From: Pseudomonadota bacterium
GTDB taxonomy: Bacteria > Pseudomonadota > Alphaproteobacteria > Rhizobiales > JAKPQE01
Direction of reading: 5' to 3'
Assembly (NCBI GenBank): GCA_029572955.1
Contig: JAKPQE010000113.1
Coordinates: 1 to 64,000, forward strand
Length of the DNA stretch: 64,000 bases
The position numbers and the translations under genes are program-made. Under the pieces are notes generated by a model. That model was not told the origin of the DNA, made no database searches, and saw only the letters and a program-made list of their open reading frames with translations. Each line of letters starts with the position of its first letter. Position 1 is the first letter of the stretch. Of this stretch, positions 44,243-49,213 are shown piece after piece.

Positions 44243-45442
44243 TCAAATGTCCTCCATCAGGCGAACAAGCTCGCCTGCAACGGCATTGCCTGCACCGGCG
44301 GCGCGAGTTGCGAGAGTTCGGAACGCATGGCCTGCGACCAGCGGCACAACCCCGTTGCCGAGCATGCGAAGCCGGTCGACCCGGGCAGCGCCATGAGGGT
44401 CCAGCCCGCCGGCCAGCCCATCAGCCACTCGACGAACAGCGGGTTCAAGCGCGGGGACGCGCTCGAGGACGGCACACCATCCGTCAAAGTCTCCGGGTCC
44501 TGGCGGCCATGTCGGCAGGCCATCGCCGGCAGCGGTTCCCCGCCCGCCGAGAAGGCCTGGTTCGGACCGCCCTTCTCGCCGTCGCTCGCTCGCGGCGTCG
44601 ACCACAGTCTCGCCTGCCCCTCGAGCGTCGGCCGTTCGCTCCCCTTCGCCCCGCCATCGCGGGTATAGGCCCCCGTCGCCACGCGCGGGGTCATCCAGCC
44701 CCGTTCGGCGACGAAGCCCAACATGTCCATCCGGCTCCTGCCATCGGTCCGCACCGTCGCCGGGCCGCTGCCCTTGTGATCGCGCACCGTTGCCGTCGGC
44801 CATAGCGCTGCCGCACCAATCAGTCCCGACTGCTTGCTTGCCATCGTCACCTTGTGACCATCGTCCGCCGCCATCGGCGTCGGCCAAGACCCCGAGGATA
44901 AAGAGCCGTTGCCGCTCGTGCGGCGCGCCGACTTCCGCCGCGCTGAATAGTCCGCCCTCAACGCGATAACCCAGTCGCTGTAGGTCGCGCCAAACCCGCT
45001 CGGCCCCGGCGACGAGGCCATTGCCGGCCGAGAGCATGCCGGTGACGTTCTCGACGAGGCACCAGCGGGCGCCGGACTGGACGAGGATGCGCCGGAAGTC
45101 GGCCCAGAGGTCGCGCGGGTCGTCGTGCCCGCGCCGACGTCCGGCGAGGGAATGGGGCTGGCAGGGGATGCCGCCAACGACGCCAGAAACGTGCCCGCGA
45201 AACTGCCGGCCGTCGAAGGTCTTGGCATCGTCCCAAACAGGTGCCGGAGCCAGGAGACCCGCTTGCATCGCCGCGACCAGATGGGCGACGGCGAAGGCTT
45301 CCCTCTCCACCATAGCGACGGCGCGGCTTCCCGGCATTGCAAGGTGCAGTCCGAGGTCGAGCCCGGCCCCGCCGGTGCAGATGGAAAGATACCGGCCGGA
45401 GTCGGGTCCGTTGCCGAGGTCGGGACGTAGAGCCACATTCAT
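44243..45442 (-). CDS. DNA cytosine-5 methyltransferase, with a possible frameshift or second reading frame
   Basis: 399 aa from ATG 45442. SAM-binding motif I (SICTGGAGLDLGL), catalytic PCQ (Cys about 94), ENV (131-133) and QRLFIL are in order, and RLRMLGNGVVPL is the conserved motif X. From about residue 186 the frame becomes Gly/Arg-rich, while the +1 frame carries a coherent sequence with WPTP, WSTPRASDG and LNPLFVEWLMGWPAGW, also known in phage methylases. Removing one G from the GGGG at plus 44890-44893 would join the halves (FILGSWPTP). No restriction enzyme is seen, so it is an orphan enzyme, probably for evasion of host restriction. Confidence 0.85.
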   Translation of the reverse strand: MNVALRPDLGNGPDSGRYLSICTGGAGLDLGLHLAMPGSRAVAMVEREAFAVAHLVAAMQAGLLAPAPVWDDAKTFDGRQFRGHVSGVVGGIPCQPHSLAGRRRGHDDPRDLWADFRRILVQSGARWCLVENVTGMLSAGNGLVAGAERVWRDLQRLGYRVEGGLFSAAEVGAPHERQRLFILGVLADADGGGRWSQGDDGKQAVGTDWCGSAMADGNGARSQGQRPGDGADRWQEPDGHVGLRRRTGLDDPARGDGGLYPRWRGEGERTADARGAGETVVDAASERRREGRSEPGLLGGRGTAAGDGLPTWPPGPGDFDGWCAVLERVPALEPAVRRVADGLAGGLDPHGAARVDRLRMLGNGVVPLVAGHAFRTLATRAAGAGNAVAGELVRLMEDI

Positions 45443-45703
45443 GCCCCCTCCCCGCCGATCGTCGGCCCCGCGCCCTGAAGCGCCTCGATACCACCATTCG
45501 TCTCGGCCTTGCGCGCCCGGCGGGCGGCGAGAAAGCGGCGCACCGAGGCCATCGCGGTGCTCGCCTTGCGCGCCTGCAGCGCCGCCGCGGCCATCCAGAA
45601 ATCGCGCTCGGCCTCGGCGAGCGTCAACCGCTCGGCAAGAGACCCCGTCTCGCTGCAGCGCCGCCGCGTCCCGCTCGGCCACAAGGGTGTCGAGGGTCTT
45701 CAT
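45439..45703 (-). pseudogene. Small phage protein, apparently frameshifted
   Basis: The ATG at 45703 overlaps the stop of the adenine/N4 methyltransferase gene (ATGA) and reads KTLDTLVAERDAAALQRD, then runs out of frame. A second frame continues with SLAERLTLAEAERDFWMAAAALQA and ends in a TGA that overlaps the cytosine methyltransferase start (ATGA). Deleting one G from GGGG at plus 45643-45646 joins them into one protein of about 87 residues. It may be a genuine mutation or a base-calling error. Confidence 0.6.
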
Positions 45704-47145: not shown

Positions 47146-48231
47146 TCATCGCCGGCCCCCCCGGCGCGGATGCGGCAGGTCGTGGCGCGCGCAATGCGCT
47201 GCAATGCCGTGCAACACGGTTGCACAATCGCGGCCACCGAGCGCCGCGCCGATTCTGGAAAACGGGGCGCGCGTCAGCGCCGCGCAGAGCCACATCACCC
47301 TTTGGCGCAGGAGCGAAGTCGCGGCGCAGCGCCGCCGACCCGCGAACCCCTCGACGTCTACCCCGTGCGCCGCTGCGACGGCCGCGATGATGTCTCCGAT
47401 CTCCGCCCCCGGTGCAAGGCCGTATGTCTCGGCACCGGCGGCGCCGACCACCGAAGGATCCAGCGGCCGGAGCGAGCGCCGATATTCGGCCGGCGTCGGC
47501 ACGCCGCTGGCACCGGCAAAATCACTGGACGCGGCCTCGACCGCACCGACAGAGGCATAGCCGATCGATGCGGCGATGGCGGGCCATGGCTCGCCCGTCA
47601 CCATCCTGGCGAGCCATGCGGCATGTGCCCGGATCGGCCGGACGCGCCCGCCTTTGTTGCCGAGGATGGCCACCTCACGGGTGACACCGTAGGTCTCGGC
47701 CACCGCGGCAATGACATCGGCGATCGATGCGCCGGGGCCGAGGCCGAGCATCGCCTCCTCGATGGCCTCGGCCTCTGTCGCGGCGGCCATCTTCGCGGCC
47801 GGCAAAGGGGCGACGACCGGTGCCGGGTTCGGCAAGGCCGGCACCGAAAGCGCCCGGTCATGCACCGCGCGGCGCGCGGCGCGGGTCGCGGCGGCCAGGT
47901 CCGGCGCATCGAGGCGGGTCGGGATGGCCCGCCGCCGGGTCATCACCTCGTCCTCGGCGAGCGGATCCGTCACCCCGGCGCCGGAAAGATCGCGGTAGAA
48001 CGCGCCGGTATCGACAAAGACGGCAAAGAGCCGCAGCGTCTCGACCATGGTCTCGGCGCGCAGCGCCGCGGCTTCCTTGCGCGCCCTTGCGCGCAGCCCG
48101 GCATCGAGGCCGTCGTCGCCCCGCTCCGGCGCGGCATTCGCCGCCTCGATATCCGAAGCGAGCCGGCGCGGGAACAGCGCCGCAAGGCGCGGCTCGCTCG
48201 CCGCGGCGAGGATGTGCCCGGCCGGGGTCAT
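47146..48231 (-). CDS. Protein with DnaA domain-IV-like HTH modules
   Basis: 361 aa. The C-terminus (AAHGVDVEGFAGRRRCAATSLLRQRVMWL, then IGAALGGRDCATVLHGI) matches the DnaA box-binding domain IV, including the GGRDxxTVLH signature with Cys-Ala in place of His-Thr. A second, more degenerate copy lies at about residues 160-225 (AETYGVTREV, RAHAAWLARMV). There is no AAA+ domain. It may bind DnaA-box-like sites at the phage or host origin. Overlapping ATGA with the upstream gene. Confidence 0.75.
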   Translation of the reverse strand: MTPAGHILAAASEPRLAALFPRRLASDIEAANAAPERGDDGLDAGLRARARKEAAALRAETMVETLRLFAVFVDTGAFYRDLSGAGVTDPLAEDEVMTRRRAIPTRLDAPDLAAATRAARRAVHDRALSVPALPNPAPVVAPLPAAKMAAATEAEAIEEAMLGLGPGASIADVIAAVAETYGVTREVAILGNKGGRVRPIRAHAAWLARMVTGEPWPAIAASIGYASVGAVEAASSDFAGASGVPTPAEYRRSLRPLDPSVVGAAGAETYGLAPGAEIGDIIAAVAAAHGVDVEGFAGRRRCAATSLLRQRVMWLCAALTRAPFSRIGAALGGRDCATVLHGIAAHCARHDLPHPRRGGRR

Positions 48232-49016
48232 GACGAGGACTCCTGGTCACCGCCCACCCCATAGGCTCGCCAGAAATCCCGAACGGCCCTCCTGAATTCC
48301 TCATCCTCACGTGTGAATTCCTCATCCTCACGTGCCGGCTTCGCGAGGCGGTCATCGACGGCCCGCTTCACCGGATCGCCGGAATGCGCCCGGCAATGCT
48401 TGTCGCCCGGCAGGCTGACCTTGAACGGACCGCGCGCGCCGGGCGGGCGCTTCATCAACTCCGCCCGGGCGCCGGCTATGACATCCGCCAGCCCCGGGTC
48501 CAGAACTGGGTCTGCCACGATATCGAATTGTCCCGCGTTCGCCCGGACGGCGCCGTCGGCCGCATGTTTCGACAGCCCGGCCAGCGCCTCCGCCACGCCG
48601 CGCGGATAGGGTGCCGGCGCGGGCTCCCCGATTGTAGTCTCACCCTCACGCCCCGCCACCGCGCCCATGATCTTCGCGGCGTCGGCCTTGAGGTGCAGCG
48701 GCGGCAGGGTCTCGGCGGCGAACTCGGCGTCGGGCCGGTTCGCCGGGTCCATCAGCGCCCCGGCGAGGGCCGCATAGCCGGCCATGTCGCGGAAATCGTC
48801 GAGATTGAACTGGCCGTTGAGGGCGCGGGCGATCTTCAGCAAGACCATCATCTGGGCGACGTCGCCGGGCGTCAAATCTGCATGGTGGATCGTCTCGAGA
48901 TAGGCGTTCCAGAGACGGGCAATGTCGGCGTGGGTCACCTCCGAACGCCCATGCGCCTCTTCCCGCCCGCCTTCGACGAGCCGCGCCGTCTCGCGCAGGA
49001 TATCCCCAGGTCTCAT
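48228..49016 (-). CDS. DUF6378-domain phage protein
   Basis: 262 aa from ATG 49016. The N-terminal 85 residues (GDILRETARLVEGGREEAHGRSEVTHADIARLWNAYL, then TPGDVAQMMVLLKIARALNGQFNLDDFRDMAGYAALAG) belong to the DUF6378 family found in phage early regions. The C-terminal part is unknown; it contains PGDKHCRAHSGDPV and a seven-codon tandem repeat near the end, caused by a 20-bp direct repeat at 48294-48313 and 48315-48334. Confidence 0.82.
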   Translation of the reverse strand: MRPGDILRETARLVEGGREEAHGRSEVTHADIARLWNAYLETIHHADLTPGDVAQMMVLLKIARALNGQFNLDDFRDMAGYAALAGALMDPANRPDAEFAAETLPPLHLKADAAKIMGAVAGREGETTIGEPAPAPYPRGVAEALAGLSKHAADGAVRANAGQFDIVADPVLDPGLADVIAGARAELMKRPPGARGPFKVSLPGDKHCRAHSGDPVKRAVDDRLAKPAREDEEFTREDEEFRRAVRDFWRAYGVGGDQESSS

Positions 49017-49213
49017 TCCACCCTCCCCCAGCTCGCCAGCCGGCAGGCGCTGCGGTCGAGCGCGTCGACCAGCCAGCCGGCGCTCGCCTCGACGAGCTCG
49101 GCGATGTCCATCACCCCGAGCGCGATCCAGATCACGCCATAGGCGAGGACCCACTGCACCGTCGCGAGACCCCGCGCCAGCCGTCGCCGCGCACTGTCGA
49201 GATCAGGCTTCAT
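49013..49213 (-). CDS. Small membrane protein of the early region
   Basis: 66 aa with one transmembrane helix (WVLAYGVIWIALGVMDIAELV). Its stop overlaps the DUF6378 start and its ATG overlaps the stop of the next upstream gene, both as ATGA, which supports it as a real gene in a translationally coupled chain. No family recognised. Confidence 0.7.
   Translation of the reverse strand: MKPDLDSARRRLARGLATVQWVLAYGVIWIALGVMDIAELVEASAGWLVDALDRSACRLASWGRVE

Follow-up and report, generated by a model that had tools for sequence, protein, structure and literature searches.

The cytosine methyltransferase gene of a prophage in the Rhizobiales contig studied here probably encodes two polypeptides of a single C5-cytosine DNA methyltransferase, read from two overlapping frames of one stretch of DNA. 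The gene lies on the minus strand of the window (the whole 64,000-nucleotide stretch of DNA that was analysed), in prophage surroundings that include terminase, portal, major head protein, tail sheath, primase, SSB and a second DNA methyltransferase. Its catalytic frame, hereafter f0, is open from 45703 to 44243 with a likely start at ATG 45442, and the +1 frame, hereafter f1, is open from 45438 to 44257, over 393 amino acids (Table 1). Close to the methylase genes, an ORF at 48231-49154 (minus strand) matches PHROG families labelled phosphofructokinase.

In the mechanism that we propose, ribosomes would start at two overlapping codons (the alpha ATG at 45442 and the beta ATG at 45438) behind a single ribosome-binding site. 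The alpha polypeptide, from f0, would be the large domain that binds AdoMet and performs catalysis, a disordered linker standing in for the small domain, while beta, from f1, would be the small DNA-recognising domain, with MWLYVP conserved at its N-terminus and a long filler in between. Alpha and beta would assemble into one enzyme, which would methylate phage (or host) DNA at a sequence set by beta. Translation from both starts, assembly and DNA methylation are what we infer from the sequence.

Table 1. Features of the candidate two-frame methyltransferase gene, in window coordinates.
Feature	Coordinates	Strand	Evidence
Alpha polypeptide (predicted), f0, 399 aa; C5-MTase large domain, motifs I-VIII then X	44243..45442	-	PF00145, AlphaFold, Foldseek
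Beta polypeptide (predicted), f1, 393 aa; N-terminal MWLYVP, filler, TRD repeats, motif IX, tail	44257..45438	-	phrog_27243, phrog_1008, f1 purifying selection
Common Shine-Dalgarno-like GGAGGGGG, then overlapping starts ATGAATG	45436..45457	-	sequence
Start codons	alpha ATG 45442-45440; beta ATG 45438-45436	-	sequence
Beta N-terminal signature MWLYVP	45421..45438	-	conserved W[LI][YFHI][VIL]P in relatives
Motif I LSICTGGAGLDLGL, f0	45347..45388	-	sequence
Motif IV VGGIPCQPHS with catalytic Cys, f0	45149..45178	-	PCQ invariant in alignment of relatives
Motif VIII QRLFILG, f0; final f0-selected segment ahead of the frame change	44891..44911	-	position profile
GGGG tract; no demonstrated slip site	44890..44893	-	not shared by relatives read
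TRD, WPTP/WPTA/WMTP/WSTP modules, f1	44452..44889	-	f1-selected; resembles in-frame LPTP modules of DLane gp65
Motif IX RLNPLFVEWLMGWPAGWT, f1	44398..44451	-	sequence, alignment
Motif X RLRMLGNGVVPL, f0	44339..44374	-	sequence; f0-selected again
Alpha disordered filler, residues 191-305 (DNA of beta's TRD)	44528..44872	-	pLDDT about 33-50
Beta filler, residues 7-182 (DNA of alpha's motifs I-VIII), stop-free	44893..45420	-	f1 stop counts

A preliminary description of this DNA had noticed that the second half of the gene can be read in two frames, and both are indeed open as described, and f0 holds motif X. The WPTP/WSTP repeats and the methylase C-terminal motif that it placed in the +1 frame are also there, as WPTP, WPTA, WMTP and WSTP modules and motif IX. 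The database search of both frames that it called for matched each of them to real families. f0 matches PF00145 (E=2.6e-25) and phrog_363 (E=5.9e-43), and carries motifs I, IV (PCQ), VI (ENV) and VIII in the order expected of PF00145; f1 matches phrog_27243 (E=2.9e-29), listed with unknown function, and phrog_1008, a DNA methyltransferase family (E=1.5e-20). phrog_1008 is matched in order by f1, across the repeats and motif IX, and by f0, at motif X, a first sign that parts of one enzyme are present in both frames. Motifs IX and X are thus both found at the locus, but split, IX in f1 and X in f0. What the data do not bear out is the suggestion that the other frame holds a second methylase family: the two C-termini are complementary parts of one enzyme, following one another in phrog_1008 and both present in the protein of phage DLane. 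By family and motifs, the locus is a C5-cytosine DNA methyltransferase, C5 methylation itself being predicted.

The frame that selection protects changes twice along the gene. In eight relatives of equal length that align without gaps (85-98% identical), most of the variable sites between the start and motif VIII are f0 third positions. Across the repeats and motif IX the variation moves abruptly to f0 first positions (the third positions of f1), and at motif X it is back at f0 third positions; the boundaries lie close to motif VIII and past motif IX. Over the middle of the gene, the rate of amino-acid differences in these relatives is 0.23-0.31 in f0 versus 0.03-0.13 in f1. The same alternation is found in 49 independent pairs, where substitutions at f0 positions 1/2/3 number 1027/627/2312 over motifs I-VIII (with the f0-third pattern in 49/49 pairs), 1482/606/702 over the target-recognition domain (TRD) and motif IX (f1-third pattern in 45/49), and 104/37/316 over motif X (f0 third positions favoured in 44 pairs versus 3). 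Comparing the window with 14 relatives gives 328/227/587, 100/50/58 and 33/36/106 for these three segments. GC content by codon position, with an f1-like periodicity in the second half and noise in the first, was not relied on. The positions of the substitutions show that selection acts on f0 where motifs I-VIII and X lie, and on f1 across the TRD and motif IX.

Long open second frames are common in high-GC DNA, and for this reason openness in a single sequence proves little. We counted stop codons across the two-frame loci of the non-redundant set described below, and obtained the expected numbers by shuffling synonymous codons while keeping fixed the protein and the codon usage of the selected frame. 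With f0 fixed, f1 has 4 stops over motifs I-VIII versus 86.4 expected; with f1 fixed, f0 has 9 stops over the TRD and motif IX versus 131 expected, all 9 of them in two loci with an early-ending alpha. The Poisson tails (7e-32 and 4e-44) overstate the certainty, the loci being related, but such deficits across relatives mean that the openness is more than chance. A high-GC artefact, which we also considered, is ruled out by three controls: the third frame is near expectation (213 stops versus 235 expected, and 267 versus 247), one-frame enzymes in the same table have 46 f1 stops versus about 43 expected, and 46 neighbouring genes have 190 versus 207 expected. The stop counts show that each frame is kept open where the other one is selected. 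Because both types of stop are avoided, something that would be irrelevant to a simple shift from f0 to f1 and back to f0, they point to two translated frames of full length.

The start of beta tells a similar story. The start codons of the two frames are at most 12 nt apart in 63/66 non-redundant relatives, a proximity that is partly automatic, since the f1 ATG TGG contains a GTG in f0. The f1 N-terminus M(T)W[LI][YFHI][VIL]P is conserved (W[LI][YFHI][VIL]P in 54 non-redundant loci), f1 third positions vary most per codon in the part of it that follows the Trp, and the f0 reading of the same bases is unconserved (ALHP, ALRS, DNTQ and others). This conservation in f1 and not in f0 argues for a separate f1 start where the gene begins. 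One relative (L005) has, on the minus strand just after ATGTGGCTCTACGTCCCGA, a C8 tract that puts MWLYVP in frame with the catalytic part, so that f1 lacks a start; slippage, phase variation and an assembly error are all conceivable explanations. At the other end of the protein, beta C-termini often read Q-L-x-L-F or similar, like a sliding-clamp-binding motif (44260-44277 in the window, and 16 relatives). In the window the C-terminus is QASLFA, and f0 is conserved there too (RLV), which makes selection on f1 inseparable from that on f0.

Structural modelling gives unequal results for the two chains. In the AlphaFold model of alpha, pLDDT is high across motifs I-VIII and X (mostly about 90 in residues 11-190, 77-97 in residues 361-399), and the chain is disordered at residues 198-305 and 335-362, where f1 encodes the TRD and motif IX. 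The best Foldseek matches of this model are M.HaeIII (1dct) and M.HhaI. The model shows a large domain predicted with confidence, and disorder at the place of the small domain. The TRD of beta is modelled poorly (mean pLDDT 61, pTM 0.25) and a search of the PDB with the beta sequence gave no match, so that the small-domain role of beta rests on motif IX, on its position and repeats, and on one-frame homologues. The filler of roughly 175 residues at the N-terminus of beta is an odd feature that counts against the two-chain reading.

Relatives were sought in genomes of the same order and class, in phages and in viral contigs, which yielded at least 202 loci; near-copies are among them, and the non-redundant set comprises 73 loci (<80% identity). 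We looked for the homologues that the preliminary description had named as evidence against its reading, in which just one frame is open and conserved while the other has stops at random. We found instead that, of the loci whose catalytic half could be recognised, at least 146 share the layout of the window, motif IX being in f1 and motif X in f0. About a dozen further two-frame loci, missed by the motif scan, were recovered by eye. Ordinary f1 stops are confined to genuinely one-frame enzymes, such as L194-L202 and DLane. In a quick tree of the catalytic half, the two-frame form appears in several deep branches, with weak deep support that does not fix the direction of change. The W-x-T-P modules of two-frame TRDs differ widely in number and kind between relatives, and look as if they had been shuffled. 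In L038 and L040, f0 ends soon after motif VIII, many f0 stops lie across the TRD and motif X is stranded downstream, possibly a three-piece enzyme or a case of decay. In L206, L207, L208 and L210, which form a second phage methylase clade with the N-terminus MNYYNE or MTAYY[NS]E, the TRD and motif IX are in f1, motif X is in f0 and f1 has stops near the gene start; beta probably starts internally in these loci.

Other relatives carry the same parts on one chain or on two separate genes. All motifs are in one frame in gp65 of mycobacteriophage DLane (L027) and in gp4 of Gordonia phage JKSyngboy, and DLane gp65 matches an f0-to-f1 chimera better (84 bits) than alpha (58) or beta (51). After motif VIII of DLane, f1 retains an LPTP module that f0 reads as filler, ahead of the LPTP modules that f0 itself encodes, which suggests that the one-frame form arose from a two-frame ancestor by frameshift. 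In AvatarAhPeg (gp79/gp78) and Float294 (gp62/gp61), separate annotated genes with short overlaps encode motifs I-VIII (first gene) and the TRD, IX and X (second gene), and in L059 and L108 alpha ends after motif VIII, with IX and X both in f1. The chain that carries motif X therefore differs between lineages, being alpha in some and beta in others, which fits the reassembly of one fold from the two chains.

The nearest known case, compared by motif layout as described, is M.EcoHK31I, a two-polypeptide C5-methyltransferase of YGGCCR. There the smaller gene lies inside the larger one in another frame and beta starts internally, whereas here the start of beta overlaps that of alpha and both frames run the full length of the gene. 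M.EcoHK31I carries motifs I-VIII and X on the larger polypeptide and motif IX on the smaller, with the predicted TRD assigned to the larger subunit (PMC3404938). The large chain with I-VIII and X and the placement of IX on the other chain are as we find them, but here it is beta that carries the TRD, in f1, and alpha is disordered there. Because the placement of the TRD and the start of beta differ, the locus is set apart from M.EcoHK31I; we have therefore filed it as working like that enzyme, yet not as a member of that exact system. A beta start of the M.EcoHK31I type may exist in L206-L208 and L210.

Other known systems share some of these features. M.AquI, a two-subunit C5-methyltransferase, splits the motifs between its chains, with I-VIII on one and part of the TRD together with motif IX on its partner (PMC3404938); motif X is there on the small chain with IX, whereas the window has X in f0 and IX in f1, and the M.AquI arrangement of motif X is found in relatives L029, L059, L108, L203 and L204. 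The monomeric PF00145 enzymes M.HhaI and M.HaeIII are alike in large-domain fold and motif order, but consist of one chain from one frame. DLane gp65 and JKSyngboy gp4 have like motifs (motif IX reads EWMMGWPAGW and EWMMGLPRGW), and the LPTP-type repeats of DLane gp65 are akin to the W-x-T-P modules of the window, but all motifs are in one frame and f1 is not kept open. In ShiLan, an out-of-frame HNH insertion lies in a phage methylase (PMC11855218), so that a second protein is encoded out of frame within the gene as here, but that protein is a mobile endonuclease, whereas in the window the second frame belongs to the methyltransferase itself. Reminiscent of that ShiLan element (PMC11855218), the third frame of L049 downstream of motif VIII holds a sequence that by eye looks like an HNH endonuclease. 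We found no description of the phage two-frame layout in the literature searched, which included few subscription papers, and this is weak evidence of novelty.

The alternation of selection is exactly what a single chain would need if ribosomes shifted frame twice in a programmed way, by +1 past motif VIII and by -1 past motif IX, and so read I-VIII in f0, the TRD and IX in f1 and X in f0; one-frame fused relatives do exist (DLane, JKSyngboy). However, such frameshifting leaves unexplained why f1 is free of stops upstream of the first shift (4 versus 86 expected), why f0 is free of stops across the TRD, and why the f1 start and MWLYVP are conserved. The frame junctions, inspected by eye only, display no shared slippery sequence and, contrary to frameshifting, beta is annotated as a separate gene in the split relatives. 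We consider this explanation unlikely, while acknowledging that L005, without an f1 start, and L038 and L040, with an alpha that stops after motif VIII, are points against two chains. It is also conceivable that beta is translated but is something other than the small domain, such as a regulator or a clamp-bound factor, as the unknown function listed for phrog_27243, the clamp-binding-like QLxLF of some C-termini and the lack of a confident TRD model would allow. Yet beta carries motif IX and repeats of the kind found in frame in a fused methyltransferase, and alpha as modelled has no structured small domain, which makes another role for beta quite improbable.

The preliminary description had left a choice between a frame that is the fossil of an ancient frameshift and the use of both frames. 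Domain-wise selection and stop-free frames favour the latter, and the fossil is ruled out by the positions of the substitutions and by stop avoidance. The more general idea that f0 alone matters, f1 being fossil or a mere reflection of the conserved f0 DNA, draws on the frequency of long open second frames at high GC and on the resemblance that a conserved f0 confers to f1; with f1 conserved and f0 not over the TRD and motif IX (45/49 pairs), and with f1 stops avoided where chance predicts 86, we find it scarcely credible. The GGGG tract at 44890-44893 exists as described, and a one-base change in it would join f0 to f1, from which one could imagine two alternative complete methylases of different specificities, chosen by slippage. 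Switching by a single G holds as arithmetic only, though: the tract is not shared by the relatives read, and we rejected it as a frame switch. The f0 product would lack a structured TRD and the f0-to-f1 product would lack motif X, so that two such methylases are highly improbable.

Beyond this prophage, the two-polypeptide reading likely extends to a widespread class of phage genes, for the most part unannotated. In these genes, two proteins with overlapping starts, each of full length and under selection that alternates domain by domain, would form one heterodimeric enzyme. Each chain would be disordered filler where its partner works, and the DNA-recognition module would have a chain of its own. 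The annotation of some phage methyltransferases would then be half missing; in the records checked, just one of the two proteins is annotated: alpha only in Synechococcus phage Ssp-JY39 (L025, 3002-4117), and beta only in Acidovorax phage Alfacinha3 (L026, 1909-3075), where the CDS runs from the f1 ATG to the f1 stop. With M.EcoHK31I as the lone oddity known so far, the arrangement would turn out to be a common phage architecture, with at least 146 loci in a small sample. Overlapping genes usually encode two unrelated proteins, one overprinted on the other, whereas here the frames would encode complementary parts of the same enzyme. Such genes may provide a natural system for studying the evolution of overlapping genes, the assembly of split enzymes and the reasons for keeping a target-recognition domain on a separate chain.
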